Notes under the pieces: generated by a model
What the model saw: the letters and a program-made list of their open reading frames with translations, nothing else
Databases searched by the model: none
What the model was told of the DNA's origin: nothing
Assembly: GCA_017506865.1 (NCBI GenBank)
Contig: JAFCMP010000001.1
Location: forward strand, 2,232,001-2,296,000
Direction: 5' to 3'
DNA from: Tribonema minus
Taxonomy: Eukaryota > Sar > Xanthophyceae > Tribonematales > Tribonemataceae
DNA length: 64,000 nt
Position numbers and translations under genes: made by a program
Part shown: in pieces, positions 13,320 through 58,838 of the stretch
How the letters are laid out: every line of letters starts with the position of its first letter
Numbering within the stretch: position 1 is the stretch's first letter

Positions 13320-16300
13320 TTACGGCATGGATGCACGCCGGAACTCGTTGTTCCCGATGGGAACGTAGCGCGCCTTCTTGCGCCCCTGCACGATCTTATA
13401 TACAGTGAAGGCGAGGCCCGCGATGAGCACCGACGCGGCACCCATGAGCAGCACCGACAGGTCCACCACGGGCTTCTCGATGATGCCCGTGGCGCCCGGC
13501 GAGCAGTCGCTGCGCCCCACCTGAGCGACGGACGGCAGCGGTTGAGACGGACAGGGCAGGGCGCGCGGACGAGCGGACAGGGGGAGCGCGCGTCAGAAAT
13601 CAGCAGCGCTGCGCTCTGAGGAAAGTGACTTTGGAGAGGAGCTTGTGGCTTTTACTTGTGTCAGCAAGATGCGTGAGTGCGCAGAAGTGGACCAGCGCGT
13701 TTCTTAAGGCTGCCCGTCTCGCACCCACTACGGATTGACAGTACGCTGCAATTTTGACATAGAAAGAGCTGTCGTTACACTGCAACGACACACTGAAGAC
13801 AGAGAATCTGCACAGAGTATGCAATGTATGCGGCTGGCTGATTGGCCGGAGTATATGCAGCCCAAATTGTATTTGGATGTACACATTTTTTTCTGCTTGA
13901 ACGTATGCAACACTGCCATGCAACAAAAGGACTTCAAGCTGTGGATTGATTTGTCAAAAAGCCTGTTTCGATTTTGACAGTGCCATTGCAACTGCAAGCT
14001 GGTGTAGAGGGGAGCATTCGTGATCTGGGGGACACAGCCACTCCTGCCTGCGTTTGCACACATAGGAACTTCAGGTCGTGCCAAAGGGCACCCACCTTGC
14101 GCCATGCGGAATCCGCTATTGCGTACAGCCACACATCGTTCAGCAGGTCGTGGTGGCCGCTGCAGTGGGCGAGACGGAAGGTGGGGGCGGGGGGGGCGGG
14201 AGGGGGCACTGTGAGTTGAAGTACGCAACCTCAAGGTGACGTTGCGAGCGGGCTTGGCTGTGAAAATTACAACGCGGCGTGCAGCGCAGTGCTGCGCTGG
14301 CAAGGCGGGCGACACGCTGGGTTTGCTCATCAAGGTAACACGGACACGTGCATGCGTACAAAGGCTGACATGACCAATGGTACGTATGACGCCGCGTTCC
14401 GTTCGGGGGCAGTTAGGATTAGAATACCTAAAAATTAGGTTTGGGTGCGTCGTCTGTGCTTGCATGCCCCTCCGCTCGCGCACGGGCAACAGGCGGCTGC
14501 TCCATGATCAGCCCCACACAGCTTTACGAAACAACCCAGGTTCTCCACGCTATACATGCATGCACCTCGGAGTGTACACGTGTATGCTACTTCTACTTAC
14601 ATGAGAACTTCCACTTCAAAGCATGTGTGTTTTTAATGTGTGTCACCGCGCACCATGTGCGCATACACCATCATCTGAGCTGAGAGGTAGGTACAGTGAC
14701 TGAATTATCAACTCGCGTCAGCACGCATGCGCGCACCTGCTGTTGATGACCTCCCCCCCCACCAAGGCCAGCCCCGGGGACCCATCCCCCGCGCTGCCGC
14801 GCCACGCCGTGAGGCCGTGCCCGAAGCGCGGCGACGGGCGCTTGGTGGACACCTGCGCGTGCTGCTTCCACCGCCGTGTCTTGAAGTTGAAGCTCCAGAT
14901 GTCATCGAGCGCGGGCACCTGTTCACACGGTCGCAGCAAGTGAAGGTCCTGTCAACACCATATGGCGCGCTGAGGAAGGTGCTGCGCAATGTGGCTCGAA
15001 AGCTGGAGGTGCCCTCGGGAAGTTAAGCTCAGCTTCTGAAGGGACAGGAGCGTTCTCACATAGCGACTGCGTGAAGTGTGTTGCGGGCATCCGCGCTGTA
15101 GGCCACGCCACCTGTCACCAGAGCGCGACGCTCGTGAGCGCAGCCGCCTGCAACCAGAGCGCGACGGCGCGCTCACGAGCTCGCTAGGTGCTGCGTGCCC
15201 TTGCCTCGTCACAGCGTAGCAGTGAGGCTGTGCGCCGCGCGCGTGAGCACTGCTATCTGCACAGAATGCCATCCAAAGGAGCGCAACGACCACGCTCGCG
15301 CCTCGTTCTCCTCACTGCCGCATGCCCTTCGCTCCTGCAGACGCTGCGCCTGCTGCGCCGCGCAAGCGCGCGCTGCTGCCTGCACAGCATACCTACATGC
15401 CTGCTTCGACAACATGCGCGCGAAACGCAATGTCCAGCACACCGCGTCTCCCGAGCAGGCACGCCCACAAGTGCGTACAGCGACGTGCGTTCTGCAGCAG
15501 CAGCGCTCATCTCGGGCAGCAGCAGCAGCAGCGGCAGCAGCAGCAGCAGCAGCAGCAGCAGCGCTCACCATCTCGTCCGTCCACCGCCCACCGTGTATGA
15601 AGAGCGAGTGCAGCTCCTCCACGTACACGGCGCCGTGGTGATCGCGCGGTCGTGGCACCTGCTCGTACGTCTCCGAGTCGTCCGCCTGACAAAGCAGCAG
15701 CAATCGGCGGCTCATCGTCAAGCTCTCGATGAATGCTTTGCGTTGGCGCAGTCGCAGAGGAGGGGGTGCATGAGCGCATGGTATGTGTCGTTGTTGAAGT
15801 GCGCAGACAGCCTGCAATCTCAACACCGCGGCACCTGCTCGTACGTCTCCAAGGCGTCCGCCTGAAGAAGCAGCAGTGATCAGCAGCAGCACACGGCAGC
15901 TTCTTGACGGCTGTTTGCGGAGGGCGTGGTTGCAAAAATGAGCACATGGCCGCAATTTACAAAAAAAGTGATAGAAATATGCAGAGTAGCCCTGAAGAAG
16001 CAGCAGCGATCAGCAGCAGCACCCAGCTCATCGTCAAGTTCTTGATGATGTGCCTTGCATTGGTGCGGTCGTGATGGAGAGGGTGCCGGTGCGTGAGCGC
16101 GTGGCGAGCGTCTCTGTTGAAGTACGCGGAAAGCCTCCAGTCTCAACGTCAATGAAAGGCACGCGCCGTGCGAGCTTCTCGGTGTGCGTCCGCGACTGCG
16201 CACACAGCACCGCCAGGTGTTGACGGCTCGCCAACTACTTGTTTCAATAGATCGGCGGTCACGAGGCTGGGCCGCAGCGTCCCTAGCGTGCGGGAGAGTC

Positions 16301-19300
16301 ACCCAAATGGCAGACGGCATGCAACGGCAACTTCAACGTCACCGCTGGCCTAATGTATGTCAATGTCCGTGCATGTGTCCGCGGCGTACATGGTTTGGTC
16401 GGGTGTGCATTGCACGCCCGTGGCCGAGATGTGTATGGCTGCATTGAGTTTGCATACTGTAGCACTCTCATGGTGGTAAAGCATTCTTGCCTTGAACCCC
16501 TGACGTCACCGCTGTGACAAGAGCGCATGTGCCGATGACCGCGTTTCACGTGATGGAGCTGGCAAGGCACGACCCGTTGGCACTGATCACCTGTTTATCA
16601 ATGTCTGCACAAAGTTGAAGAATGGGTGTTGAAGTGCGCACATGCGCACACACTGCACGCCGTAAGCTTACAAACGACGTCACCGTGCGCACACCAGAGA
16701 CACTCAGGTGCATCATTGGCAGTGGGCGCCGACCGACCCGTGCGCTGACCCCTGACCCTACTTGCTGTGGCAGATCACTGCCCCAGACCCTCGCTGCGCA
16801 AACCCTAGTTGGTCAAACCCTAGCTGCCACAGCGCTCAACAGTCGCGCACCTCGCTCGCCACGCCGTGCATGTTCTCCTCCACCTCCGGTGTGAGCAGCT
16901 CCCAAGTGTCAGTGACGGGATCGTATGCCCACAGGTCGTTGAAGTACCTGTTGAAGTACGAGGGTGGGCCGCACATCATGAACATGTGCGGTGCAACGGT
17001 CAGCACAAGACATTCATTCCATGAACGGGCCCCGAGAATCGCACGCGCGATGGGACATGTACAGAGTACACATGGACAGCAGAGCACACAGAGCAAACTC
17101 GTGCGGTGCTGCTGACACTGCGCACGACTCAGACCGAGACTTGTCGGCGTTGTGCAGAAAGTCACACTCCACACGCGGGGACGCACGGCGCGCTCAAACT
17201 CCACCTGTGCAACCGTCGACCGCCGAGCGTCCAACAACACAAGCTATATTCACGCATGCATGCTGCACAGCGAACGACTCAGGATGAGCGATGAGTATCG
17301 CCTGCGGCGGCGGCTGCGCCCTCAGACAAAACTGCTGTGCACCACGGCGTTGCGGCTCTCGCCGGCGACCATTTGTTAGCGCAAGGGGGCTGTGGTCACA
17401 GCACTTTGACGCGGTGCGTCATGCCCAGCAGTACCGCAGCGCAGGCTTAAGTTTAGCGACCGCAATGTATACATTCACCCCACTGCAGCGTCTGCCCCCT
17501 TGGCCACATGCTCACTTTGCTGCAATGAGTCCCCGAAACTACACTTGCAACTACGGCATCGCTGACACAGCCATACATGCAGCAGCAGAAGCGGGCATGA
17601 CGGTTACATGACAGTTACGCACTTGTAACCGCTGCCCTGGTAGCGCCGGCCGCCGAACAGCACCAGCTTCTCGGTGCCGTGGACTGCAGCAGCGGCAACG
17701 CAGCCCGGGGGGGGGGAGGGGGGGGCAGCGTTTCCAGCACCAGCAGCGGAACAAGCAGCGGCAGCGGAAGGGAGCATGAGGGTGTTGGTGGTGGTAGGCG
17801 TGCGCAAGCACATCTCAGTGCGGACACTCTAAACACTGCTTGGCAATCGTGCTGTTGCAGTATGCACGCCTACGCACATGCACATCCTGCGCAGTACAAC
17901 TAGCCCCCCTGCCCCCCCTCCCCCCCCAACGCTCTACCGCGGGAAGACTCAGGGAGGCGCGTGGCATGTTGCAGCACAGTTCGACGCAGACTGCAAGTGT
18001 GCCTGCTTTTGTGACATTCTTGCACGCGGGCACGAGCACTGCTAGCATCTTGCCCTTGCAGATGCATACCTGTCCTTGCATATACATACTTCGGAAGTAC
18101 ATACACATGCACCTAAAACAGACTGCGCAGAGCAGATGGCCCAAAGGCGTTCTTTGATGGTTGCGTGCCGCACAGTGTGCTGCTGACGCGCGCTCGCGCG
18201 CTCCGAGCGCCCCTCCTCCGCTTCCCCCCTTCCACTGAAATCACAGCGCACCAGACTGAGCAGCGACACGCGCCGCGCAGCGCCTATCGCCCGTTGAGCG
18301 CCCTGCCTGCGCGCTGACACGCCTCTTGAACATACGACCTCCGATTGTACTTCAACTTCACATACTTCAACTACACGTGCGACGCACCTGGGTGCTCGCC
18401 CTTCTGGCTGGCCTTGAGCGCCCGCGCGGCGCCCTTCTGCGCCGCGCCGTCAGGCTGCGCGCTGCTGCTGCTGCTGCTGCTGCTGGTGGTGGTGCTGGTG
18501 GCGGCGGAGTCCGCCGTGGTGCCGCCGCTGATGCCGGTGCTGTTGGTGGTGGTGTTGGGGTACGTGATCACGCGCGTCATGGTCTGGCCCCAGCGGCACG
18601 GCGCCGGCAGCGACGTCTGCGCGTGCGCAGCAGGGGGAGGCGTCACGTGCGCGGTGAGGCACGCGTCAGGTAAAAATGACAGCTCGTGCAAGTAGTTCAG
18701 CAGCTGCATTCAAGAGGGCGTGATAGCGGCTGATGCAACAAGTACACGGGGGTTGCAACAGTCGGATTCGTGTACATATTTCAGTGCACGAGGGGGCTGT
18801 CGCCAGGCTCGAGGCCCGTAGCCGCAGCAAGCAGAGAAAACGTTGAGGCGGGTAGAATGGTGGGTTTAGGGTTAGGGTAACCTAACCATGATCCTAACCC
18901 TGACCATAATCCTAAGAAGGGCTTCGTGTACCAACGCTGAAACTGGTCACTTGGCCCTGCAGGCAGTGCCGGCTGAGCATTGCCGCATGTGGCAGTGCTC
19001 ACCACGCCGAACACTGCGCCTGGCTTTCCTGAGCACAGGTGCTTGTTAAGGCGCCACGGTCGTCACCACGGCGGCTTGCGCGGCGCAGCGCAGCACGGAT
19101 TCCCAGCATGTCTGTACACCCACGCCTTTGCGACAAATGGTGAGTCTGGGAGTGCTGCGCGACCTCGAATCCGGCGCGCCTGGTGAGCGAAACAGATTAT
19201 GCTCTGACATGGCATCCATGCCTGTGTGGCGGATGCGATCTCGAACGCGCCGGTGATGACCGCGGCTGCGGCACGCGGAAACGGCCACTTCCCGCTAAAA

Positions 19301-22300
19301 TCAAACTTGAAGTTAGAGCTTGGCGCAGTGGCCATCAGAGGAAGTCCAGAGTGCGCTGTGGTCGTACACGCCGTTGCGCTCAACCACAGCGGTCCCTAAC
19401 CGTTACCGTAGACAGACCGCCCCCAAACCCACGCTCTATCGCAGCAACCCCCCCTCGCGCACCCGCCCCCTCAAAAGGTGGGAGGCGCGTGCTCTTCTGA
19501 CGGTGCTTACTTCAACATTAACTTCTGAGCGCTGCCCCCACCCCCCTTGGTCGCTCGCGCCGCATTCGCCTCCATGAGGTCGATTTGGGAACACTTTGCT
19601 GTCGCACCTCGCCACCTCCAACCCCCCCCCCCCCGCCTCATCGCGGCTGTGCTTTCAAAAAGGGCGCATGCTCGGTTCGCGGCCCCAGACCACACTTCAA
19701 CATCAACTGCTGAGCGCTGCCCCCCCGACTCAGCTTGGTCGCCCGCGTTCGCATCCGTCAGGTCGAACGCGAACACCTTACTGTCGCACTCCAGCCCCCC
19801 CTCGCTTCCTGATCACCCCCACAAAAGCCTCAATTCAAGCTGCAACAAATACCACTTGAGCGCTGCTCCCCCCCCCCCTCACCTTTGGTCACTCATGTCG
19901 CGTTCGCCTTCGTGAGGTCAAATGCGAACACCTTGCTATCGCAGTCCAGTTCACCCTCGCTTCCTGATCATCCCCTGAAGAGCACCACTTGACCACGTCA
20001 ACCCCCCCCAAGTCCCGGGTGTGCTTCCGAATGCTTCCAAACAAGGACCATGCTCGGTTCATGGCCCCAGTTCAAACTTCACCATCAACTACTGAGCGCT
20101 GCCCCCCCCATCTCACCTTGGTCGCCCACGTCGCGTTCGCCTCCGTCAGGTCAAACGCGAACACCTTGCTGTCGCACTCCAGCTCCCCCTCGCCATTCTT
20201 GCCGCTCGCCAGCACCACCACACCCCCGGAGCTGACCGCCATGCCCTGCCCGCGCCGCTGCCCTGGCGGGTGCTCCGTGTCCGTCGCCCACAGCCGCTGC
20301 CACGACTTGCCGCCGAGCGTGACGCCCTGCTGCGGCGCTGGGGGGGCAGGGGGGATGGGGGGGCCGGGGGGGGGGGGGGAGATGAGGGTGGATAGGAGGT
20401 GGCTGACGGTTGCTGACGGATCGAGTGCTGCTTCGAGTAGCGCTTGATAGGTGACGGGCGCTTGCTGCCGTATCAACAGCTACTTCGAACGGCGCTCGAT
20501 GGAGGGAGTATGCACGCAGCAGAGCGCTTTGCGTAACCTGAAGGTGGAGAGATTATGTCCTGAAGGGGATGTAGAACTGGCGGGGAGGGGCAGGTGACAT
20601 GAGCAGATGATGCAACCATACTGCTCAGGCGCTCTGCTTCAGATTTGACATTGCCATAAACATGCCATGGACAGATGGTCCGCTGATGGTCCGTTGCCAC
20701 ACAAGCAAAGACACCAAGACGAGAGCCGTGGCAGGCGATAGCTTCACAACTACAAGTTCAACTCTGGTGCGGCACAAGAAGAAGTGATGTGAAGGTGCTC
20801 AAACCAGGAGTCGTTTTCTTGTAAAGCACATCGGCGGTTAGTGATAGCGAAGGTTTGAGAATGAGCATCGCTAATCTACGTTCTGCTGCGCACAACAGTC
20901 CCAGAGGTGCAGTACCCCTAGACGCACTGACGACAGTTGTGACAAATGTGTTAAGGTATCAACGCAGAGCATGCACACCTTGCGACGTATAGACGTGCAG
21001 ACAGCTGCCCTGCACCAACAAGCCTGCATGTGTCCCATACAATGCAATTGAAATGAAGTTGAAGTAGCATTCAGGGACAACGTCAGTGCTCTGTACGACT
21101 GAGCAGCACAATCCGTGCTGCGGAGGTCCAACTGGTCTCAGAGCCTGTGTCCTTTTTATTAATTCTCGCTCAGGGCGCGAACTTCAGTGGCTTTTTCGCC
21201 TTGCTCATCGTCAACAAAGGGGTGTACACACAACTTAATGTTTGCACAACTTATGCTCCCCCCCCGCCCCCCCGGCAGTTGCGTGCACTCACTAAACGAC
21301 CACAGATCACCCAGGTACTCCGCATCACCTGCCTCATTTGTCGCCGCCGAAGATGGTAAATGCGCTGCTTGTGCATTGAAAAAAGGTACCACCACCAAGA
21401 GGACCGAGTCACTGCGAACACGCACTTGAACTTCAACTTAAGCACCGCGCTCAGCGCAGTCACCGAACGACCACAGATCGCCCAGGTACTCCGCGTCGCC
21501 CCCCTCTTTGTCGCTGCCGAAGATCGCAAACGCGCTGCTTGTCTTTTACATCGAAACAGGTACCACCACCAAGAGGATTGCTGCGAACACGCACATGAAC
21601 TTCAACTTCAGCATAGTGCTCAACAAAGTGCTCAGCTCACCGAACGACCACAGATCGCCCAGGTACGCCACGTCGCCCGCCTTGTTGTCGCCGCCGAAGA
21701 TGGCAAACGCGCTGCTTGTCTTGAACCCACCAAAACAACACAGTCACTACGAACGAGTACATCAACTTCAACTTCTTCAAGGTCATGGCACCCCCTCCCC
21801 CTCCCCCCCCCCCCCCCCCCCATCACCAAAGGACCACAGATCGCCCAGTACTCGGCGTCGGCCGCCTCATTGTCGCCGCCGAATATGGCAAACGCGCTGC
21901 TTGTCTTTATGATGAGTTAAGATACCACCAAGAGGGCAGGATTGCTGCGAACACGCACATGAGCTTCAACTCTCAGCGCGCACTCACAAAACGACCACAG
22001 ATCGCCCAGGTACTCCGCGTCCCCCTCCTCTTTGTCGCCGCCGAAGATCGTAAACGCGCTGCTTGTCTCTCTTAAAGGTCAAACAAGTACCACCACCCAG
22101 AGGACAGAATCACTGCGAACACGCACATAAACTTCAACTTCAGCACAGCACTCACCGAACGACCACAGATCGCCCAGGTACTCCGCGTCCCCCGCCTCGT
22201 TGTCGCCGCCGAAGATGGCAAACGCGCTGCTGTCATTGTACGCGCTCATGGAGAACTTCCAGCGCCGCCCCGGCGCGTTCCTGAGGCCCGAGTCCAGCTC

Positions 22301-23956
22301 GCTCCAGATGAAGCCGTTGTTGGTGATGTGCAGCGCCCAGACGTCGTTGAGGAAGTCCTCCTGGTCCGCCGCGCCCGGGTGCTGCATGTAGTCCTCCCTG
22401 GCGGGGCGAGGGTACAATGACAGTTACAACGCTTGGTTTAATTTCACAACTGAATAGCACCGGGGTGCAACGTTTGGTTTAATTTTATAACTGAATAGCG
22501 CCAGGGTGCTGCATGTAGTCCACCGTGGCGCCGCAAAGAGAGAGTGGCAGTTACGGCGGTTGCAGTCACAGCCTTCACAACTGAAGCCCGTGCCGGGGTG
22601 CTGCATGTTGGTCCTCCCTGTGGAAGTTACGACGGTTGCAGTCACAGCCTTCACAACTGAAGCCCGTGCCAGGGTGCTGCATGTTGGTCCTCCCTGGCGC
22701 CGCGAGAAGTACGGTGGCAGTCACGACGGTTGCAGCTACGAACTTTGAAACGTGAACTCGCGCCCGGACCGTGCGGTGTGTACAGGCTTGCAAGCCCATA
22801 CTTCAAGGTATGAAAACAGCCATCCAGCATTGAAGTGGTCTGCGCTGTGAATCATACAGCGTACGTGACGCTTCAAGCTGCGACAATAACTTCTATTAAT
22901 GCTGGTGTTCAAAGGGTCATCGAGGTGTGCGTTAAAGCTGAAGTCATGCATGTTCAGCCTCATAGTGCCTGTCAGACCCAATGTGGTTCAGTACCCCTGT
23001 CAGAGTGAGCATCTGGTTGCTGGGATTGTAATGACATCGGATGGTCTTGTCACGCAACAATGGTTTTTCCAATGGCCTCAAGTGCCGACCGCAATGATGT
23101 TGGCGTCATCCTGCAACTCCATGGCAGTCCATGCCCATAGTCATTGCCATGGAGTCCAATTGCAAGACAAGAGCAAATTGAACACGGGGTGCCTCGCATT
23201 ACAGATGATTTGATTGCGCAAATTGCATCGCTCACGCCACAGCTGTAATAAGAACTTGCGCAGCGTTCTAAGAATATATAACACTGATGGTGGCGTTGTT
23301 TGTATGGCTGCTACTACCGAAGTAGACGAAATGTTACATTTCATCATTAGGTGCCCCGACACCATTGAAAATTGAAGCATAGATGATGTCGAGCTTGAGG
23401 CATTGAACACGTTAGTGTACATTTTGCCTGTGTCGTGTCGTATTGGGACGTACGACTTGACATCACGGCAGCCGTGTGTACATGTAACAAGATAGTGTCG
23501 ATGCCACAATTCCACAATCTGAAAACTGACAACAGTGCTTGTGCGATGGTACTTCATGGCGCGCACGCTATGGGTGATAGGTTGAGTAAAAATGTTGCTT
23601 TACGCTTAGTGTCAGAGCACCGATGCTTGACATGCAAGCAAACTGTGAGATTCGCACAGATGCAAGTACAACTTTGAGAGGGCAATCTCACAGGCACCTA
23701 ACATGCGCGATCCTCACCCCTTGCCGCCAAAGATGACGACCCTTTGCTCCAGCTGCACCCTTCCAGCTGCAGCATCGTACACGGGCAGCCATATTGTCTC
23801 CGCGCCGCCTTGCTTCCGGCAAAACGGGATGGCGGGACGCGCACTGTACAGTGAGTGCGGAGCGCGCAGCGCTTTGCCAGCTGCCGCCGGTCGCACTGCC
23901 GTGCCTGGATTCGAGCAGGCACAGAGTGCCAGCAGCGCCGGCACAAGCGGCCTCAT
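13320..23956 (-). CDS. Kelch-repeat type I membrane protein, 550 aa
   Basis: Ten exons in transcript order: 23956-23718, 22397-22156, 20337-20117, 18616-18388, 17683-17623, 16947-16851, 15685-15569, 14918-14737, 14159-14096 and 13520-13320. They total 1653 bp with consistent phases. A signal peptide comes first (MRPLVPALLALCACSNPGTA). Kelch strands follow: VVIFGGKG, LNDVWAL, FAIFGGDN, LGDLWSF, LVLFGGRR, FNDLWAYDPVTDTWELL, LFIHGGRW, LDDIWSFNFKTRRW, LALVGGEV and LLNDVWLY. That is enough for about a six-bladed propeller on the outside or in the lumen. A Thr/Ser-rich stretch is at about 250-290. The last exon has one membrane segment (about 502-528) and a basic tail (GRKKARYVPIGNNEF). It is probably a binding or adhesion protein; the ligand is unknown. 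Its introns carry the densest boundary echoes in the window. It diverges from the plus-strand gene at 24120. Confidence 0.9.
15835..16160 (-). repeat. 3'-boundary echoes of kelch exon 7
   Basis: The acceptor region and start of the exon at 15685-15569 (TTCAG followed by GCGGACG, then TACGAGCAGGTGCC) is repeated at about 15810-15890 and, more diverged, at about 15990-16150. Shared intron sequence (the CATCGAGAGCTTGACGATGAG block) lies between the copies. Only the copy at 15685 opens into a coding exon. Confidence 0.75.
19530..19965 (-). repeat. Three 5'-boundary echoes of kelch exon 3
   Basis: The last 50-60 bases of exon 3 (20117-20180, encoding VFAFDLTEANATWATK) with donor and early intron are repeated at about 19875-19960, 19725-19790 and 19535-19610. 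The intron between the copies is also shared, including TGAGCGCTGCCCCCCC and a CATCAACT element. Copies nearest the true exon look best conserved. Confidence 0.85.
21280..22065 (-). repeat. Five 5'-boundary echoes of kelch exon 2
   Basis: The end of exon 2 (22156-22230, FAIFGGDNEAGDAEYLGDLW) with its donor and the following TTGAAGTTGAAG intron motif recurs at about 21980-22060, 21830-21905, 21645-21725, 21465-21540 and 21285-21360. Unit length is 170-190 bp. This array makes up nearly half of the intron. Each copy ends in or near GGTGAG/GGTGAC, so several could still be cryptic donors. One copy is followed by a 20-plus C run near 21797-21820. Confidence 0.9.
22480..22710 (-). repeat. 3'-boundary echoes of kelch exon 2
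   Basis: The start of exon 2 (GGAGGACTACATGCAGCACC at 22397) with its upstream intron is repeated three times at about 22505-22535, 22600-22625 and 22675-22705, as GAC(T/C)ACATGCAGCACCC variants each preceded by CAGGGAGGAC-like sequence. The intervening intron (GGCTGTGACTGCAACCGTCG) is shared. Exon 2 is thus echoed on both sides. Confidence 0.8.
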
Positions 23957-24119
23957 GAGCCCCTGCAGCAAGTCTCTGCACTACACACACGACTTCACAA
24001 AATTCCTACTTCAATTCCATCGATCAAGACTCGCCAGGGACTCGAGCCCACCCATGTCAGAGAGAGTGCTTACGTTTTGAGCAACAGCACGACTCCAAAC
24101 CCACACACACGACAATACC
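23957..24119. promoter_or_regulatory. Compact bidirectional promoter region
   Basis: Only 163 bp separates the start codons of the minus-strand kelch gene (23956) and the plus-strand plastid protein (24120), so both 5' leaders and core promoters must share it or overlap. I see no clear TATA box. Confidence 0.6.
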
Positions 24120-27100
24120 ATGAAGACCATCGCCATCGCCGCCGCTGCGTGCGCCGCCGCTTCCGTGGAGGGCTTTGTGCTGGCACCAGCAGGCACCCAA
24201 TGTGAGCTCCAAAATAACGCGAACTGAGAGAGGCACTCTGGGCACCGCGGTTCTGAAGGCACGCCTGCATGTCCCCTGCATGCATTGACAGCATCACGCT
24301 TGCACAGCTGCTGCAGTTTTCAGTTACAGTGCTTGCTGCATGCCTGCCAAGGGTCTTTGCCGCTTTGGATCGCCATTCCTGCGCCTCTAACAGACGTGAA
24401 TATCTTGAGGATCACGCACCTTGCGTTACCGTTGCTGCACTCTTCGCGAATTGCAGGCAGCTCAGTTGTCATGTCGGCCGAGCCACTGGACAGGCGCGCT
24501 TTCGCTGGGAACGCGGCTGTAGCACTCGCTGGTAAGCGATAGCCAGCTACTTCAAGCCACACTCGAGGAAGGATTGTGAGAATAGCTGCAATAGATGTGC
24601 AATCCCTAGGATGGAGTGAGAAGCAATGTGTTGGCCGTCCTACTTCATAGTAGCGGCAGCATTTTCGCTGTGTGCTGCACACAATTGTGCACTTCCGCAC
24701 AGACCGTAATTCGAGCCGTTATGAATCGCAAACCGGCGCTCTTGCTTGAGTCCTGTGCATGTCGTTGCAAATTTGGCTGTAAAAATGTAGTGTCTTTGCT
24801 TCGGGAGCTCATACAGGGTATTGCGTTTCAACGATTTGCACAGTCACCGTCGTTGATGACAAACGAAATGAAATGGGCCGTTGCTGCATCTCGATGTTTG
24901 AATGACTTGGTGCATATATTTACTTCACAAGTTTGCGCACGCATGCAGTCTCGAATGCCTGCAAGTGCCTGTGAAGAAGCTGATCACGAAGGCACTGGCA
25001 CTGACTTGCGGCGAAACACCTTTTTTCTCCCTTCACGCGTGTATGTACAGGCTTGACAGCATTCTCACAAGGCGCGTCTGCGGCCAAATACTTTGGCGAC
25101 AAGGTGGGTGGTGTGGTATGCAGACTTGTTTGCCGCTGCTCTGATGATTCATGGAAGAGACATCAATCGATGGCGTCTCCCTTGTTTTCAGACCAGCCCT
25201 TGCACGTCAAGCACACACATGGCCTTCTTTGTCTGCCATCACATACGGAAGTCGATAGGAATCGGTGGCGCCTTTCTGAAGTTGTTTGGGCGCTGCTCAG
25301 GTTATGCAGAGGAGGGGGGGAGGGGTACGCCAGAGTTGACAACGATGCAATCAGCTCATGACTGATGCAGAGCGCACGCAACCTTCAAAAATTCAACACA
25401 TTGAGCCAAATCAAACACTGTGTCAGGTTCTAATGTGCATTTGTGTTGTAATACACGCACGTTTGGGGGTGATAGCAGATGCAAATATGTTTCGGCATCA
25501 TCACGACTGTTTTTCAGTCACCTTGTGCGCTTAGGTTCGTCACCAACTTGTGCACATGTACCAAAGGCCAGCACCACAGTGCCCTGCGCTGGTGCCACAA
25601 CACCTTTCGACGCTCCACAAAACATGAACCTCTCACACTAATTTCCGTGCTGCGCTCGCCTCCAGAACGACTACCCTGAGGTGGTGAAGCCGGAGGATGC
25701 GGTGAAGGACGATGCGGCGTTTGGCTCTGCTGAGGTGCGACCCTGCCCTGCTAGAAAATGCTAGAAAATATATGACTCTGCTGAGGTGCGCCCCTGCCCT
25801 GCTAGAAAATACTTGAATATGTATGCCTCTGAGGTGCGCCCCTGCTAGAAAATGCTGGAAAATGCATGGCTCTGCTGAGGTGCTCCCACGCCTTGCTGGA
25901 AAATGCTGTCAAACAGCAAATGCAGACCACTGCGAATCTGCCGTAGTACGCTGACGGAGGTCCAGTGTTACCTGTATCTTGTTGACATAGAGTTGATTGC
26001 AGCCTAGGAATTCTATGGAGTGAATCATTCATAAGTGAAAACACCTTGACTCAAGATCTTTCCATACGTGAAGATACTGCAGCGTATGATATCAGCGAAA
26101 TGATTTCGACATCATGGGTGCTTATTGCAGCGTACACATTCAATGCATTAAGTCATTATCATAACTGAACTCGGTTGGGCACGGTCTGTACATGATTGTC
26201 ACTAAAGTGAGCCATTAAGGCAGCAAGTCTTTTGTTACGTCTAGTTGCAGCACATATTTCTAGTGTGACAATTGGAATGAATGAGTAGATGTAAAATCGT
26301 CCTGCTGCCCGATCTTCTGATATGATTGCAACGTGGGCGTTCAACGAACTGCATCATAACAAATGCGCAAATTATCGCAGCATATGCACTACTCAGATTG
26401 ATTGTTGCTAATTTCAACTGTAATTTTTTTCATGGCAAGTTGCAACGATTGACATACTTCCAGCAGAAACTCTGGCGAAGTGAGGTGTGGCTACAAGTTT
26501 CTGTGGCGTATACATGGGAACACACCGCTATAACTGAAGTTGTCTCATACAAGATCTTCCCAGAAAAATGTATGCATCATATTTACAGTTTTTTTGAGTT
26601 TGATTATTGTTGAAAAAGTGCGACTCTTTGGCAAGAAGTCAACAGCATATTCGCATGGGGCTTCTTGCTGCACCTGGAGCGACGACAGCTTGCAGGACGC
26701 GTTGCTCAGATGTTGCGGCATGATAAATCACTCAACACGAACATTCCCAGCTGTGGCGACATCACAAAAGCTGACGTGACCCTGATTTGGCTGCTCACCG
26801 TCAGCTGCGCTGCAACTTCAACTTGAACTGTGTGCCTCGCACCGCAGACCAAGTCCGCGGTTAGCGACATCAAGGGCTACAAGCAGGCGGTGGTGGAGCT
26901 GCAGTCGGCGCTCAAGGCGGACCCGCAGGTGAACATATGCTACAGTCACATGCTGCCGCTGGAGGCTGTGATTGCATGCCAGTATCGTTGGCAGGTTTCT
27001 ACGTGGAAGTGAATACGTGCTGCGGTCGCCTGCTGTTGCAAGCCGTGATTTGCATGACAGTGCCATCAGCAGGTCGTGCGTACAGGTGTTGCAGTCAGGA

Positions 27101-33135: not shown

Positions 33136-33383
33136 GATGAAGCACCGCGGTTCTCTTCAACTGCTCCGTTTTAAATTTGCAGCTGTGCACATGTCATGTC
33201 AACAGATCCACGAACTTCAAGTTGAACTTTCTCTCCAACTGAAAAAATCTTTCATCGGCGCTGTTTTGCTGACTGGGCACTGGGGAGCACGGGCAGAGGG
33301 GGTGCCAACAGCAGCACGGCATTGTTATCTGTGCGCAACGCGACTCCCTGCACCAGGGACTTTTCGCTGGAGCCTTCTGGCTT
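33136..33383. promoter_or_regulatory. Bidirectional promoter region
   Basis: 248 bp between the thioredoxin start (33135, minus) and the first possible start of the modular gene (33384, plus). It holds an ACTTCAAGTTGAA element at about 33212-33224, one of the dispersed palindromic motifs. No obvious TATA box. Confidence 0.55.
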
Positions 33384-33846
33384 GTGAGGAGCAAGTTGCT
33401 GCAGAATCCTGAAGTGAACAGCGCGTCTGCCAGGGACGCTGCAGCAGCAATGGACACCAAGCTTGTGTACGTCGAGCATGGCGGTCTGGCCCATCACGTG
33501 GCGCTCTACTCCGGCATCAGCCCCACTGAGCTCAGCAGGCTGCTGAAGGTGACGCGAACTGCATGCCGTGGGCTTGAACCTTTCTTTTGCGTGTTGTTGT
33601 TGATTCAGCAACCATGACATGAATGCTGAGCGTCGGTGCTCCTTTACGGAGATTCGGCCCCCACCTTCATTACGCAACTGCGGCATGCTCCATCAAGCGG
33701 CATTGCCATCAGCTCCAGCCTTCAAATTAAATTGAACTGACTCATTGCCTGATTCGCTGCCTGCCCTGCAGCCGCAAGGACACCCACCATGCACACCAAC
33801 ACGCACACACATGCAAAAATCAAGGGCCATGAACATATGCACGCAA

Positions 33847-45900: not shown

Positions 45901-48900
45901 ATGTGTGTATCAAACGCTGAAAAGCACACAGAAGTCTTTTAACTACTGTGGATATGGTGGCACTGTTTGACTCGTGGCCAATGGCTGCAGCAGCGGCGAC
46001 CACGGTCATTGGTAGAAGGCACTTGCGGCTGACCACACCTTGTCGCCTAGAGCTCTACGATCCTAAGATGTGTTTCCATGTATGTATGGCCATGCAGTTG
46101 CTATATATACACATCAGGTGCGTATGGGCTGGCGCGTTCTGGCAGTTGGTGCCGCAGGTCTCTTTTTTTTGCTGGCGTGATAATCACCGAGCGGCGACAC
46201 CTTCGCTTCCTGCTTGTTTAGTTGATGTACTTCAGAAGTAAGTAGGTAGTGGCTGACGCGTGTTCCTAGCAGAAGGCGCTACGGGGCTGGTTTGTCTCGC
46301 TGGCGTGCTGGTCGCTGAGTGCTGATGCCTTGACTGCGGCCATGCTGGGCCCCTCACCCAGACTAGGTATAGGTACTGCTTGGCGCCTGATGTCGTGGGT
46401 GTGGGTGGCGGTCGCTGAATGCTGACACCTTGTCACTGCCTGCTTGCCTAAGTTATGTAGGCATGGCCTGTTGCCTGGCCGTAGCGGACGGTGCCATGGG
46501 AAGTTCTGTGTTTTGCGGTGTGATAGTCGCTGGGCGTTGACAATTTGTAGTGAAGGCAGAGGCAGTGCTCAGGGCTCAGAGTCATGGTGCAACCCATGTT
46601 TTGTCACGGCAGGATACATGCACATTTCATCAGATTCTGCATAGGAATCACAGTAACACATGGCTGAACACCAGGCAGGTCTCTGTGCTGCACACCACCC
46701 CCTAGGGCTCGGCAGCTGTTTGCAGGGAACTTCCAGCATGACACCCATGCGCCTGCTCGAAGTTTTAAATCTTGATCTCGCCACACGCGGCGCTGAGCCT
46801 GTTTGCTGTTGTCCTCCATTTAGCACTGACATGCTCATCGCGCCTTCTTTATGGCGCTCTGGCAGGGGGAAGCGCTGATCTATGCCAGCCTGGAGAACTA
46901 CAATGCCTCGCGCAACCTCGAGAATCTGCTGGACACCATGACGGTGCGTAAAACAACTTCAACTTGAAGTTGATGCTTTGTAGCGCCCGCGCACGTGTGC
47001 TGTGCGTCGCAGTGCACGCAGTGTGCTGCACGTTCACATGACGCATGACGGCATCAGCGTAGACTAGGTAAAGCCCATACATTGGTATTCGCACAGGATA
47101 AAAAGGTTTCGCATCCGCGCCTCTGTAGCGCAATGAAGGTTTTGGCACCTGTGTCAAAAATTGTGCGTCAGCACCGCTCTGCCACCCCAGTCTCCTGAGG
47201 CAGGTAGCCGGCTGAAAGCTCTTCTGCGGTGCCAGCCTGTAACGCCACTTGGACGATGCGATCAACCGTTCCGTGACACTGTGCAGCGGCTGCTGCAGCC
47301 TTTTATAAATAATACTTTGAGACAATAAGGTGGGGTGCATTAGTGTTTGAGCCAGTTTGGCTCATTTAACCCCATCATGAGGTGCCGGTAGCAGTACCGG
47401 CATGCTTCTACGCCGCTTTGAAAGCCGGTTCAACTTTTGAAACACGCGAGCTGAAAAAGAAATTTTTGAATTCAGACGCAGCAGCAGCGAACAGGGGCGC
47501 TGGCGGTAGGCCCTTTCAAGCCAGGCAAGCCACGAGCTGAGCTTTGCGTGTGGTCAAGGAAGGCAAGCAAAGCACATGCTGGGTATGTATGTACAAAATA
47601 GTCGGCCCATGGTCTCAGCAACAGCCAACAGCCTGTGGGTTTCAGCATTGACCAGCAGCTTCAGCCCCCCCACTAAAGTGCGGTAGGTTGTATGTAGTCG
47701 TGCAGATGGTAGAATAGTGTGACAGCAATAGCGATGATGATTCTGCTTCTTGATGAAACAAAACTGCCAATAAAAATGAAATGTGTTCAGTAAAAGTTGC
47801 ACTTCATGAAGGTATATGTTCTTCGTGACAAACAGAAATAGTTGCCCTGAAGTTGGCTCTCGGATGGACAGACACCCCGTGGGGCGTGAAGCTCCTGTGT
47901 CTGAGTCTGGGTCTGACTCTGGAGCTCTGGAACTCCAGACCCCAGGGGGTGTCTGTTCACTGAGAGCCAGAAGGGAGGGCGCTGCCACACCTCTAGACGC
48001 GGACATCACCCAAATGGCCATGTACGTGTCATTTGTAGCTGAACACGTGCGGCATCAGCTGGTCACATGGCTCCAGTCACCATTCCGTGGCACTGCAGCT
48101 GAGGCAGCAGCCTTGACCCATGTGACCAGCTGACGCCGTGCCCGCTCCCCAGCAGCTATCAATGACACGTACATGGCCATCTACGTGGTGTCTGCATCCA
48201 GAGTTGTAGCAGCGCCCTTGCTTGATGGAACATCACACATGCAGGCTAGCACGTCACACCGTGCCAGTCCATGACGCAATGGCAAACAGAGGCAGCTGAA
48301 GATGACCCACACACACTTGGTGGTGAAAGCGGAGATCAAGGAGGTGATATTGCTTTCCCCAGCGAACCTGCGCTCGCCACTTCATGATTGCTGAGTCTCC
48401 TAGTCTAAATCAATGATCGGTAGCTGGTCTCAAACAGCTCACGAACAAGAATGCACTGCAACGACAACGTCAAGTGCCAACCTCAATAATGCCAACCTCA
48501 ATAAGGGCATGTAAACCAAAAATACTCAACAGCGCCATATTGCAACACCCTTCGCCAGTCGCAGCTCCATCACACGAGCTTGACCGACAAAACGCGCTCC
48601 TCGATGTCGGCCCTGCCATTGCAGGTCCTGGCGCGCAAGGAGTTGATTTTTGTGCTTCATCGATGCTGTATGAAACAAGGCCTGCGCTCGATTGCGTTCC
48701 CCAATTCAAGCACGGCCTTCACGTCTGAAGCACTCGCTGGCCGCAAACACTCCTGCGATACACCTTGCACTGCTTGCCACATCAGCATCTAAGCATGTAT
48801 GTACAACTATATACTTCCTCCGTTTCAATTTATTAGACAGTTGACTTTCAAATGCAAATATGAGGTCAAAAAGAGCTACAGTGACATACACTCCTGTTAT

Positions 48901-51900
48901 ATGAATGGAAGAGAACTCCAAGGCCTTTCACATGCACCAATCAGTTTTGAAAACGGTCCACAACTCGAAATGTTGTCACTTTCCCACTACGAGGGTTAGG
49001 GTTTCGGCTCGCGGAAAAAAACGGCAAAACTGCAAGTTTGAACTTGCGCGAGTTTGAACTCAGACGACATGCAGCGCCACACGCGCTATGGGCCACTAGA
49101 GCGATGGCAGCCTTAAGTAGAAATGCGTTATAACAGTACAGCTAGCGTTTGTGAAGCGCACTGGCGACAGGCCACCTCGTGGTGCGTGATCAGCGGTGGC
49201 AAACGAGCACGATGTGTTTCCCAGGATCTGTGCCAGAATACAGAGGATGCGCGCGCTATCTGCCAAGCTGGCGGTGCTGGTGAGCTGTGCTGCACCTTCA
49301 TATGCAGCTGCAAGGCTGGCAAGCCTCCAACCATCGCTGGCACCACGCTGGAGGCGGTGTCGGGTGTGTCTGTGAACAGCGCTAAATCTGCCGTGTTTTG
49401 GCTCACGCGGTCTACGTCGAATGCAGCACCTTGTATCGCTGAGCCAAGCTCAATACTCGCAGTCATTTGGTCAGATGCACAAAGGCCATGCTTTCTGACC
49501 AGCACATGCTCCACAGGGTGTGGTGTGCACCCCCAGCAGGGTGAGAGCTGTAGAGACGATGACAGCACCGCAGCGTGCACTTCAACATGAAGTAGCGTTT
49601 CGTTGTCAAAATGGCCAGGATGGCCACATTCCGTGTTGTGAAGTTGGACTGGGTGGCAATGGGCACCCCAGCATCAAATGCAACACGATACACCACAATA
49701 GTGTCGTGATTTGGTGTGCCTTGCATGCTCCAGGCTGCGCACGCACACAACAGCTCTAAAACGGCTTCAACTGGTAGGCCATAAAAAGAGCCCCCTATGG
49801 TAATTCTGGTCATCTACAACCTCATTATGGAGCACAGTGGGGTTCACAAACACAAACTGTACCACGATGGGGTGCACAACCGGCAATACGCGGGCATACT
49901 GCAGTGAAACGCGTCCGCTAACGTACATATTGTGCGTGCAACAGCGTTTTGGAGGTCTAAACGCGCGCGCGCGCGACTTGTTCATATCTGCTCATGGTAA
50001 GTTCACTGTCATCTGTATTGCCCTATTTCTGGAATGCTGATCACTTTTACTGAAGGGACTTTTTTGGTGTGCGCGGCCGTCTTTGCCCTTGAAATTGCAT
50101 TTCAATGTCAACTGTCTAATAAATTGAAACGGAGGAAGTATGCATGCCACCTGTTTATGGCGATGATGCTCAACATCAAACGGTGCGCCCTGCCATCACA
50201 GGTCCTGGCGCGCAAGGAACGGGAACTCTACATGGCAGAGGTGGCTGGCGCCGCCGACGCGCCCGGTGGAGCGGACGCGGCGATAGTCAACGGCTCAGCA
50301 GCCAGGGATGCCACGCATGACAAGGTAAGTTGGGGTATCAATACGCTACCCCTAACCCTATCCTTAGGGCTATTAACACCTCACTCCTGCCCCTCATCCA
50401 AACCTTAGGGCGGATAGGGCGCCGCCACAGCTCGGCAGCAGCCAGGGATGACATGTACGATAATGCGCGTATTCGACATGCACCACTTCACTGTCCCAGT
50501 AATTGGGTATGATGGAAGGCGGCCCGTTCAAACCCTAACCCTTGACCACGTCACTGCCTAGTCATTACTAGCAGGTATGATGGAAGCCGGCCCGTTCTAA
50601 CCCTAACCCACCTAGGTCACGGGTTGCAGTACGGCACGCATACCAAGCGCTGTCACAGAAGGGGTGGGGCGAGTATGTGCTTTTTAAAAACAATTTAAAA
50701 ACAATTGATGATTGTCTGCATGTTTATTTGGGCGGTCTTTTACAGGCACCAAAGGTGTCATTTTGGATGGATGGAACGTCGCCGTTTAAGCCTTCGCCAG
50801 TCACATGTCAGCAGCTCTGCGCCTTTTAGTCTCGAAGGGCCGCTGCCTTATTGCGTCGCCCAATTTTTGGTCCTCATTTGAAGGCAAAATCCCGGTCACT
50901 TTCCTTCGATGCTAGCGTGGAAAGAAAAGGGGCGCTTTAGACCGGATTCTTCACGTTCAATTGGAAAAGACGGCCTTAGTACGTGGCATTGAATTGTAGC
51001 GTTTCAAGGTATACCTGATTCACTTTCTCCTCTCTTTCACTTGCCACCTGATTTATTGTTCCCTCATTTTCAGATGTCAGATTCGATCGATTCACATCAA
51101 CAATGACAACAGCATCATGCTTGTTTATTATTATTTTTTACCTTGCCTGGTGTGGTCCAAGCTATAATCATACTTATTCAAGTAGCGTTTCATCTGTTGC
51201 AAATCCAGGCTTTCCTAATTTCATTATGTGCTTCAGTTCAGGCAATCAATTTTTATTTTCCAACAAACAATTGTTTGAATTTATTGTTTCTTCAGTGTGA
51301 TGGCTTCCAAGACTATTTACAGTAGATGGTACTCCATTCCTGGCATGAAGATTTGTGCAATTGAAATCTGCAAATTGAGCCGGTCCTGGAAATATTGTGA
51401 ATATTGATTTGGTATGCGCCTTCAAAGAGCTAGAAGTTTGATTTGTATTTCCTTCAGAGAGTTGCATTCATACTTGAAGTATTTTGTTTTTCTGTTTGCT
51501 GTTACTTTGAGGCTTTTGAGCGATTATGAAATATCATAAATAGGCCGAAGCCATGGGAAGTTTTTTTGAGGTCTTTAACACCAAATAAAGAAACAAAATC
51601 ATAGCAGACAAAGTTGAATTAAATGGTTAACTGCGTTTACTGTACAAATCAAATAGGCCCCTCAAAAACCTTACAAGAATCTGAATAATCAGAATTGTAT
51701 TATTGACTGAGTTGACATTTCCAAATCGCTCCATGTATTGTCAGTACTGAAAAAAGAAAGCGGTGATGCGCTCTGAATGCGCGCCATCAACCCTGGGCAG
51801 ATGATGGAAATAAGAAGCACGTCATGGCCTAGTGCGCCGTTGCAATAGTTGTCGGTGCGAAGCTCACAACGAGCCCGCGAGCCGGGCAATACACAAATAA

Positions 51901-57900: not shown

Positions 57901-58838
57901 ATGATATGCATAACGTGCGGCAAACAGCAGCATGTCAGCACAGCTTGTCCTCTACAAATGACTCACGAAGTGAACGCACCAATGCTGAAACCATCGTGCT
58001 GTGCAGCACCTTGCTGTTGGCACCTGTGTTCTGCAGGCAGCTGAGTGGGTGCGTCTCTACACATAGTTTCACAGACTCTAACCTCGCCCTGCTCAAGGCT
58101 AAGGCCGTTCTAGTTTCGCAACGGTGCCAAAGTGGTCATCCACCGCGCCATCGGGTCGCTATACCAACGTGATGTTCCCTCGGCAGAACTTCGAGCACCG
58201 ACAGAATAAAGCGAAACAGGCGATTATTAACTTGTACCGCAAGTTGTCAGTTGCGGGGGACCGATCGGTTACTACGCATTGCCTCCCACGGCAAGTTACA
58301 CGTACCGGTTAATGCGTGTGGCGCAGCGGGCCACCGGTTACGGGTTAAAACCGGAACAAAAAACTTTTACTCGTACCGGTGCAACAAGTTTACGCGCCGT
58401 CTCTGGCGATTTACATTCACAGGTGTTGCAGCACTATGTAGGCGCATGCGACCAGTTGCAGCAAACAAATTGCATCAGCCTGTCCCCGAATGCGAGGTGT
58501 GGAGTAACGTGTCATTTTCACCAGCCTGATGTGCACCTGCTCCTTGTATGCGACATGTCATGTCTGAACATAGGCCCACTGAGGCAAGTTGGTCAGATTG
58601 CGTTGTCGCCATTGCAAGAGTTGTGGGATGCAACGTTTTGCTCCATCAACTGCTCCTGCTCACTTTGCGATGCAGGAAGTCTGGCCTAGGTCAACACTGT
58701 TGGCACGGCCGCTGAGCATCAATGGACAGTGCCAGTGCTGATGCACTTCTCTGCGTTGATATTTTGTTGTGCGGTCGCAGGCAGCAGAACAGCCTGGAGG
58801 ACCTGGTGGACACCCTTCGGCGCATGCCAGTGGAGTGA
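33384..58838 (+). CDS. Giant nine-module repeat protein, 23 exons
   Basis: Exons: 33384-33548, 34011-34172, 35120-35405, 35891-36136, 36721-36792, 37629-37742, 38418-38683, 39470-39530, 40247-40417, 41171-41347, 42350-42492, 43124-43259, 45548-45697, 46866-46943, 50202-50324, 52074-52139, 52632-52741, 54316-54403, 54918-55286, 55617-55831, 56602-56874, 57396-57527 and 58781-58838. Phases agree throughout except inside exon 4, where a one-base shift at the G run 35924-35928 is needed. From exon 4 on, a module of about 60 residues recurs nine times: two helices (LLRKLLDGL, LSxEQ, ADALLRRWL), a DP turn, AALDVY, an acidic turn, then DLxDTLxRLAR. Acidic, Gly or Ala linkers separate modules. No signal peptide or membrane segment. 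I cannot name the family; it reads as an all-helical scaffold. The first 55 codons may start at 33384 or 33450. Exon 11 ends in a GC donor. Confidence 0.85.
33848..33935 (+). repeat. (CA)n microsatellite of about 44 units
   Basis: An almost pure CA tract in the first intron of the modular gene, with degenerate CA-rich flanks to about 33957. Expected to vary in length. Confidence 0.95.
36137..36320 (+). repeat. 5'-boundary echoes of modular exon 4
   Basis: The exon end GCGCTCGAGGAGCAG and donor GTGCGCCTTGTACG recur as GTGCTTGAGGAGCAG plus GTGCAGGTGCGCTACG (about 36195-36222) and as GTGTACGCCGCGGCCATCGG plus ACAGAAG and GTGCGCCATGTTGTACG (about 36279-36322). Confidence 0.85.
40535..40630 (+). 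repeat. 5'-boundary echo of modular exon 9
   Basis: About 65 bases of the exon end (CGCGCTACGAGTCGCGGCGG onward) and the donor context GTGA(G/C)AGACCGCGTG are repeated at 40538-40625. Further downstream, intron sequence (CAGCACACATCCCG to GATGTCCACATCGCCAGG) is repeated again at about 40958-41020, matching 40450-40513. Confidence 0.85.
42000..42245 (+). repeat. 3'-boundary echoes of modular exon 11
   Basis: The acceptor and start of exon 11 (CGTTGCGCACGCAGGGCTTC, then AAGGCGCTGGTGTGG) occur twice upstream: at about 42001-42031 (TGCGCAGGCCTTCAAAGCGG) and about 42158-42240 (GTGCGCAGGGCTTCAAGGCG, then CTGGTGTGGTCTGC). Between them the CCTCCGCTCGTTGCG tract and the CCCAGCCAAAC block are repeated. 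Both upstream copies are open acceptors, so alternative splicing cannot be excluded. Confidence 0.85.
42541..42780 (+). repeat. 5'-boundary echoes of modular exon 11
   Basis: The exon end ATGGCGCACGCCGCGTGGG, then ACGTGCACAG, with donor GCGAGT recurs at about 42547-42580 (nearly exact), 42643-42676 and 42738-42766 (degenerate). The TGATTACGCAATGG-type intron sequence is repeated too. Together with the 3' echoes, this exon is echoed on both sides. Confidence 0.9.
43330..43770 (+). repeat. 5'-boundary echoes of modular exon 12
   Basis: The exon end GACATGAACGGCGTGGGGCC, then TCTGGAG, with donor GTGAA recurs at about 43350-43390 (GGACCTCAACGACGCAGGGC) and 43513-43556 (GGACCTCAATGGCGCGGCGC), and as a fragment near 43733-43757. 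A CAGTTCAGTGTACTGTTCAG intron block accompanies each unit; the period is 160-180 bp. Confidence 0.9.
43847..43896 (+). repeat. Interstitial telomere-like repeat
   Basis: About eight units of TTAGGG or TTAGGGG in the intron after modular exon 12. Shorter tracts lie at about 7924-7967, 18862-18880, 31154-31166, 39564-39598, 44898-44911, 45293-45311, 50345-50358, 50530-50542 and 50600-50613. All are internal and in both orientations. Confidence 0.9.
44030..44660 (-). pseudogene. AT-rich island resembling mitochondrial nad4L
   Basis: Composition is sharply AT-rich against the GC-rich intron. Read on the minus strand, one frame gives FAVFIQTVAASESAYGLAIV, very like the conserved NuoK/Nad4L segment (typically TVAAAESAIGLAI). 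The next frame then gives SKVLFSADNINS, like the usual Nad4L tail (KTISVDNINSL). The frame change and poor flanks indicate a decayed nuclear copy of mitochondrial DNA rather than a working gene. Stramenopile and haptophyte plastids generally lack ndh genes, so a plastid source is less likely. Based on recalled family motifs only. Confidence 0.5.
45700..45895 (+). repeat. Three 5'-boundary echoes of modular exon 13
   Basis: The exon end CTGGCCCCCTCGCCCAAG plus GTATGTATGT recurs at about 45745-45782 (CTGGCACCCTCGTCCGAG plus GTGTGTATG), 45807-45838 and 45868-45898 (CTGCCCCCCTCGCCTAAG plus GTATTCATG). The CATGCAAATACATACCTACC intron spacer is shared. Period about 62 bp. Confidence 0.92.
47850..48185. 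repeat. Adjacent hairpin-forming inverted repeats
   Basis: The first foldback pairs TGGCTCTCGGATGGACAGAC at about 47852 with its complement near 47975 through ACACCCC and GGGGTGT. The second is longer: 48016-48078 pairs with 48110-48180 (ATGGCCATGTACGTGTCATT with its complement, then CAGCTGGTCACATGG with its complement). The loop is about 30 bases. It could be a foldback mobile element or a small-RNA precursor. No coding role was seen. Confidence 0.7.
48600..48646 (+). repeat. 3'-boundary echo of modular exon 15
   Basis: CCCTGCCATTGCAG followed by GTCCTGGCGCGCAAGGA matches the acceptor and start of exon 15 (50188-50220). The 1.3-kb transposable element lies between this echo and the real exon. 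Confidence 0.85.
48814..50138. mobile_element. Tc1/mariner-like (Stowaway-type) element
   Basis: Terminal inverted repeats begin CTTCCTCCGTTTCAATTTAT and match perfectly for about 32 bases, then imperfectly to about 45. A TA dinucleotide flanks each end (48812-48813 and 50139-50140), the target-site duplication of the Tc1/mariner superfamily. The 1,325-bp interior has frames of 150-155 codons on both strands (about 49123-49590), but I see no DDE/DDD transposase motif, so it is probably non-autonomous or carries unrelated sequence. It sits in the intron before modular exon 15. Confidence 0.88.
50990..51900. other. AT-rich segment in intron 15 of the modular gene
   Basis: Marked drop in GC against the flanks, with no recognised gene. 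Several hydrophobic frames appear on both strands, as expected of AT-rich DNA. Could be organelle-derived or a relic element. Confidence 0.4.
52820..52995. repeat. AT-rich two-copy tandem repeat
   Basis: Units of about 75-79 bp at 52821-52899 and 52921-52994 share ACCCACAACAAATAAT, then GCGATT, then GGGT(G/T)AATCATAAT. They lie in an AT-rich patch (about 52760-53040) in intron 17 of the modular gene. More AT-rich, unassigned sequence follows at about 53490-53960. Confidence 0.85.
57549..58408 (+). mobile_element. 860-bp insertion in the right arm, possible retroelement relic
   Basis: Absent from the left arm, where the intron is short and uninterrupted. ATTTACA occurs on both sides (57542-57548 and 58409-58415) and may be a target-site duplication. 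The interior is rich in ACCGGT and AACCAGTTT motifs, and ACTTGTTGCACCGGT near 57692 recurs inverted near 58377. One frame has a CCHC zinc-knuckle spacing (57907-57948), as in retroelement nucleocapsids. If so, it is a short broken relic. A non-viral origin is equally possible. Confidence 0.4.

Follow-up and report, generated by a model that had tools for sequence, protein, structure and literature searches.

Tandem duplications straddling splice sites in the introns of Tribonema minus and their frequency at intron starts

Junction copies in the window

In the Tribonema minus contig stretch analysed here (64,000 nucleotides, hereafter the window), exon ends and their splice sites recur inside the adjoining introns, raising the question of how such copies, which we call echoes, arose and whether exon-intron junctions are favoured places for them. 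Self-comparison of the window confirmed echoes at 14 junctions in four genes (Table 1), bearing out an initial annotation that had proposed at least ten such junctions in four genes on both strands. The examples it named in the kelch gene, the 24120 gene and the BTB gene were recovered, as were several in the modular gene, but modular exons 13 and 15 could be assigned to no echo. The number of local pairs scoring at least 36 bits was 46 in the real sequence and zero in each of five single-base shuffles, and a faint further echo (41 bits) was seen at donor 36137 within the span of the modular gene.

Exons of three window genes were defined by exact back-mapping of public proteins, and annotated exons that overlap echoes were counted as intron. 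The translated 24120 gene is identical to T. minus P0001 across 207 residues (100%); its domain, PF05757, denotes the PsbQ family, and none of its eight exons overlaps an echo. The BTB label is the initial annotation's name for a flanking gene with a predicted exon at 8032-8256. A gene finder trained on the window exons was used to judge gene content elsewhere in the 158-Mb assembly. Two introns in our data are likely to be of the GC-AG type, one at locus L030 of the kinase sample described below and one at modular donor 42492, whose GC donor recurs in its echoes.

Table 1. Genes, echo arrays and telomere-like runs, in window coordinates
Feature	Position	Strand	Description
PsbQ-like gene (24120 gene)	24120-30023	+	Public protein P0001, PF05757, 8 exons
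Kelch gene	13337-23956	-	Match to T. minus public protein P0009
Modular gene	33450-58834	+	Match to T. minus public protein P0040, whose annotation extends past 58834
Kelch exon 2 donor array	21288-22238	-	Parent and five echoes at a period of 168; unit of 76 bp of exon end, 5' splice site and ~90 bp of intron
Kelch exon 2 acceptor echoes, upstream intron	22369-22735	-	Contain younger tandem duplications of 76 and 41 bp
Kelch exon 3 donor array	19509-20193	-	Three echoes, exon part frameshifted in all three
Acceptor and exon-start echoes upstream of kelch exon 15569-15685	15651-16147	-	
PsbQ-like donor 25734	25722-25908	+	Tandem 51-bp units of 13 bp exon and 38 bp intron
PsbQ-like donor 26928	26892-27348	+	Echo at a period of ~237 bp, and a partial copy
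PsbQ-like donor 28331	28307-28500	+	Single echo, 37 bp alike
Modular donor 40417	40347-40636	+	One echo; second, intron-only copy at 40941-41022
Modular acceptor 42350	42145-42375	+	Echo keeps AG and exon start intact
Modular donor 42492	42460-42768	+	Tandem echoes; read as GC donor, public annotation picks another donor
Modular donor 43259	43210-43689	+	Telomere-like stretches between echo units
Modular donor 45697	45679-45905	+	Head-to-tail 66-bp units
Acceptor of modular exon 50202-50324	48610-50218	+	Echo 48610-48641; inverted-repeat element 48811-50141 between copies
Donor echo of predicted exon 8032-8256 (BTB label)	7832-8115	-	Echo 7832-7923; CCCTAA-type run 7924-7967 at unit boundary
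TTAGGG/CCCTAA-like runs, mostly intronic	7924-7967, 18866-18877, 31156-31167, 39565-39598, 43847-43896, 44897-44908, 45293-45310, 50598-50609		

Alignment of the copies did not support the description of the units as starting or ending at junctions. Among 20 donor clusters from the window and the kinase sample, the aligned copy crosses the junction in 16, by 6-12 bp in three and by at least 25 bp in 13; in the remaining four the aligned part halts 5-23 bp short of it. All six acceptor clusters cross. The exon part of an echo unit measures 13-95 bp, and the first echo stands at a period of 51-282 bp. Copies abut head to tail in 8 of the 16 donor-crossing arrays (seven by pair alignment and one more, at 25734, according to Tandem Repeats Finder), and in the other eight at least 15 bp of unaligned sequence lies between them. 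Given the slow change of the exon parent, such unaligned stretches are compatible with age, and they fit templated insertion too. Some old copies appear to stop close to the junction, which is what decay of their intron half would produce; in several old echoes no intron half can be detected, and there a templated insertion is indistinguishable from a decayed tandem copy. The exon occupies a smaller fraction of the unit than random placement predicts (0.35 vs 0.45, P=0.009). Junction echoes are short tandem duplications that straddle splice sites rather than beginning or ending there. GC content as a determinant of the position of duplication was ruled out, the duplicated DNA being no richer in GC than its surroundings.

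Paralogues of two of these regions were also compared. A paralogue of kelch exon 2 on another contig (C52) had no local duplication on self-comparison over 3.2 kb. Of the BTB-side paralogues, one has a 44-bp CCCTAA-type run between the echo and the preceding unit, and the other is without the run and without the exon part of the echo, having kept the second intron-start copy. As judged from the two sequences, the simplest reading is that the BTB-side echo is ancestral and was partly lost in one paralogue.

Duplications at junctions and in intron interiors

The window sample was chosen for its echoes, and we set beside it loci from a kinase family search. Among the 131 matches listed, interrupted domains were chosen regardless of echoes, giving 30 stretches of which 28 were used. 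L033, L043 and the donor of L037 (no clear donor) were dropped, as were low-complexity pairs and, in L029, a possible acceptor at the first match; in L047, L054 and L055 the donor was re-placed on the basis of the reading frame once the sequence had been inspected, and two members of the sample, L052 and L056, are paralogues. The 39 introns of three window genes have 10 donor ends and 4 acceptor ends within local direct duplications. In kinase introns, duplication clusters take in 10 of the 26 donors and 2 of the 9 acceptors, with arrays on a par with those of the window in L036, L047, L048, L050 and L055. The echo pattern is therefore present elsewhere in the T. minus genome, and the serial duplication of junction-bearing segments that the initial annotation had suspected beyond the window was indeed found at loci picked regardless of echoes.

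For the window and the first kinase batch, probes made of 100 bp of exon end and 30 bp of intron were compared with their own intron, with mirror probes for acceptors. Matches were returned by 12 of 50 donors and 6 of 48 acceptors, as against 17 of 224 probes from intron interiors, or 3 of 102 where the intron had no junction echo (a single intron supplied two of the three). This is the contrast between junctions and interiors that had been put forward as a check on the pattern, and it came out in the predicted direction. Probes from exon middles gave 0 of 9 matches, and exon-end probes compared with the introns of other genes gave 1 of 300. Counted as clusters over the window and the kinase loci, duplications occupy 20 of 65 donor ends (16 crossing) and 6 of 48 acceptor ends, while 12 interior-only clusters lie in 60 kb of intron. 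The difference between donors and acceptors (Fisher p=0.025; window alone 0.14) is suggestive only of donors being favoured.

It could be argued that the junction is not special at all, and that random tandem duplications, combined with selection on exons and slow decay of the exon half of each unit, simply make junction echoes more visible. We consider this unlikely. The slower decay of the exon half is observed, and we built it into a simulation of random tandem duplication with protected exons, real introns and observed unit lengths, run at exon-decay factors of 0.667, 0.625 and 0.5 and, by group, 0.4 (codon counts suggest ~0.58). At a factor of 0.667, the simulated shares of donors, acceptors and intron interiors were 0.157, 0.115 and 0.728, so that some 27% of detected units would cross junctions anyway; the observed share at junctions was 26 of 38 clusters. 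Relative to the expectation based on interiors at the same factor, donors were 7.7-fold in excess (P=2e-8; kinases alone 5.5-fold, P=5e-4), or 16 clusters with P=3e-6 if only crossing clusters were counted (kinases 6, P=0.03). The donor excess survived a halved exon distance (factor 0.5, P=4e-6; kinases alone 0.004). Acceptors lay close to what random duplication predicts in some tests; at 0.667 their excess was 3.2-fold (P=0.027; kinases alone P=0.16).

The same question was approached from the background density of duplications. Two colinear 120-kb blocks, A (C90:760-880 kb) and B (C179:148-268 kb), are gene-poor according to the gene finder, and their use was for that reason limited to estimates of background density and to recent indels. 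They align over 87 kb with 5.5% substitutions, and their sequences suggest haplotypes or homeologs kept as separate contigs. Duplication density in these near-copies of one block, 0.22 and 0.18 per kb, is about that of intron interiors (0.20 per kb), which argues against a general visibility effect as the source of the junction excess. Against the pooled interior and gene-poor background of 0.21 per kb, 20 donor clusters (16 crossing) were seen where 2.4 were expected (3.1 at factor 0.5), and over factors of 0.667 and 0.5 the donor excess ranged from 5.1- to 8.5-fold for all loci and from 4.8- to 10.6-fold for kinases.

Stricter versions of the comparison separate the two samples. With exons masked, 11 of 29 pooled clusters started at the donor, compared with 14% expected (P=0.001). 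That excess derives from the window (8 of 15, P=3e-4) and is absent in the kinase loci (3 of 14, P=0.33), a result that random duplication would accommodate. A strict kinase count, restricted to crossing clusters and excluding two re-placed donors, gave P=0.17 against the loci's own interiors, and P=0.012 (factor 0.667) or 0.03 (factor 0.5) against background. Overall, duplications are some 5-8 times more frequent at 5' splice sites than expected; the excess is strong in the window, and the independent sample supports without securing it. The best intron-only identity of duplications that start at a donor (median 81.6%, 11 introns) did not differ from that of 19 others, acceptor-linked ones included (82.4%, p=0.49). 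Donor duplications thus look no older than the rest, which, in these small numbers, favours more frequent formation over longer retention.

The initial annotation had described duplication as an ongoing process. Support for this is only indirect and comes from blocks A and B, two copies of a gene-poor block at 5.5% divergence, between which 12 of 27 indels of at least 20 bp are tandem-like, some of them within satellite-like arrays; no junction echo was observed to vary between haplotypes or strains.

Fate of the copies

We asked what becomes of an echo once it is formed. Substitutions between 19 window echoes and their parent exons fall on codon positions 1, 2 and 3 in the proportions 20:20:54, which fit the 1:1:2 expected of a dead copy whose parent changes only at third positions (p=0.35) and depart from 1:1:1 (p=5e-6). 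Frameshifting indels interrupt the exon part of 11 of 38 echoes. Echo decay therefore looks mostly neutral. The two kelch arrays, of five and three echoes, argue against a fully neutral reading, in that changes private to a single echo are distributed 5:5:13 (p=0.06 against equality) and mixed changes 2:1:8 (p=0.02). The third-position excess is also present in the echoes of kelch exon 3 (private 3:2:6, mixed 0:0:4), all of which are frameshifted, and so the excess need not stem from coding. The kelch bias may come from faster mutation at third positions, which are rich in GC, and coding constraint could act on some kelch echoes.

Splice sites have fared better than the sequence around them. 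Of 68 bases in donor dinucleotides 64 are unchanged, and of 18 in acceptor dinucleotides 17, compared with ~13% mismatch in the exon part, a pattern suggestive of selection for spare splice sites. The picture of introns littered with spare splice sites stands to that extent.

Seven annotated exons coincide with echoes, of which P0009 has four and P0040 three, and they yield repeated peptides. Since an echo bears only one junction, the second splice site of any such exon must come from elsewhere. Four of the seven use one homologous splice site; three use none, as would be expected of a predictor that patches reading frames, and on their sequence all seven are possibly artefacts of gene prediction. 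The P0009 annotation also continues into a segmental duplicate at 11.0-11.7 kb.

These observations bear on whether some echoes are functional, as extra or alternative exons or as spare donors under selection. The annotated exons with a homologous splice site, the third-position changes in kelch, which include those on the echoes' own branches, and the few altered dinucleotides (4 of 68 donor bases, 1 of 18 at acceptors) all speak for such a role. Set against them are the frameshifts, which affect all three echoes of kelch exon 3 despite their third-position excess, the three echo exons without a homologous splice site and the pooled codon positions, which match dead copies. On balance, we regard a function for some echoes as unlikely.

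Echoes had also been proposed to lengthen introns. Window introns with echoes are longer (median 1166 bp, n=14) than the others (650 bp, n=25; p=0.001), but after subtraction of the array copies their median is still 980 bp (p=0.01), so arrays explain only part of the length. Donor array spans make up 3581 of 36,159 intron bases in the window.

Origin of the echoes

The echoes have an ordinary basis, short tandem duplication followed by mostly neutral decay, and one unexpected property, in that they are concentrated at 5' splice sites. Several papers report that introns can be gained by tandem duplication (PMC3443670, PMC4974935, PMC2891723), two of them documenting gain by duplication of an AGGT-bearing exon segment (PMC3443670, PMC4974935), and the initial annotation had called attention to this route. 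That the arrays mark introns themselves gained in this way is very improbable, because the AGGT model puts a copy of the exon end at the 3' end of the intron, and in the nine window introns whose donor probes returned echoes, these stop well short of the acceptor. Introners and other dispersed mobile units would also give introns that carry repeated units, but this origin is scarcely credible here: introners place one sequence in many unrelated introns, whereas the 3.4-kb kelch echo region matched, among its best candidates, itself, one paralogous exon (72%) and otherwise less than 75 bp, and cross-gene exon-end probes gave the single match in 300 noted above.

We consider it probable that echoes arise by short tandem duplication of junction-containing units and that the donor excess reflects more breakage and fill-in repair near intron starts. 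What was observed is that half of the arrays are tandem in anatomy, that many copies have lost their frame, that echoes are found at other loci of the genome too and that donors carry an excess of duplications; from these and from analogous systems we infer a break-repair route. A unit spanning an exon-intron junction would be duplicated in tandem at a period of ~50-280 bp. The outermost copy would remain in use, and the copies on the intron side would be spliced out and mostly decay without selection, although arrays may grow further after the first duplication. Duplications internal to exons would be purged and those internal to introns tolerated. The donor excess would follow if breakage and fill-in repair were more frequent near the start of the intron, for example if structures linked to transcription left staggered nicks that were filled in and joined end to end.

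Telomere-like sequence in echo-bearing introns fits such repair. Exact runs of at least two telomere units number 10 in 60 kb of introns and 10 in the window, as against none in each of the two 120-kb gene-poor blocks and a mean of 0 over 20 shuffles. Across the genome, TTAGGG repeated three times occurs at 5238 and 6236 overlapping places, the reversed control at none; among the matches listed, TTAGGG arrays are scattered along contig C1 and contig C2 starts with the repeat. The runs are interstitial telomeric sequences in the usual sense, the organism's telomere repeat lying inside chromosomes. Such runs are reported as scars of break repair in mammals, in the accessible text of PMC2246262, and by analogy their presence in introns, once at an echo boundary, may hint at break repair in T. 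minus. As there, the runs are intrachromosomal TTAGGG repeats, which in T. minus lie in introns and, in one case, where two echo units meet; unlike those in that report, they are linked to tandem duplication, in two arrays only.

Short tandem duplications arise by fill-in at staggered breaks, through CST-Pol alpha and end joining, according to the available text of PMC8355091. That system resembles the present one in its direct head-to-tail copies, and breaks are invoked there for natural genomes too. Its breaks were induced in cells of mammals and its duplications are mostly below 100 bp, whereas the T. minus events are evolutionary, somewhat larger and concentrated at 5' splice sites. Intragenic duplications described earlier likewise include splice sites within their units, but T. 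minus copies remain within existing introns, with no multiplication of whole exons or introns seen. The potato RdRp gene, as the accessible portion of PMC4974935 presents it, also has a junction-straddling unit and further duplication inside the intron; it is a single acceptor-side case in which a new intron was made, while the T. minus duplications are mostly at donors and in many genes, with no new intron seen. Among the top matches in the open-licence literature, as far as their text was available, we found neither a description of tandem duplication focused on donors nor one of such a pattern in Tribonema, and the introner survey PMC9860276 does not use the word Tribonema in its main text.

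A bolder form of the break-repair reading is conceivable, and we offer it tentatively. The intron start might itself be a fragile site, where transcription or splicing leaves staggered nicks at 5' splice sites and telomere-type fill-in repairs them, and the resulting copies might lengthen introns and supply donors and exon ends for new exons with repeated peptides.

The echoes touch on two open questions, what gives introns their length and what determines the sites of tandem duplication. Should the donor concentration prove true, transcription or splicing would shape the sites of DNA breakage and repair, and introns would grow from their 5' ends by the copying of exon ends. If the sampled rate holds, the T. 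minus genome would offer a large natural set of such events. For practical purposes, annotation may take such copies for exons.

An inverted segmental duplication of ~6 kb (5832-11869 and 58420-63998, ~77% identity) flanks the genes of the window, and a 447-bp tandem duplication at 732-1621 has two copies that are 87% identical. One modular intron contains, between an acceptor and its echo, an element of ~1.3 kb with 60-bp terminal inverted repeats (48811-50141), and the same intron contains two neighbouring long imperfect palindromes, at 47854-47969 and 47976-48218.
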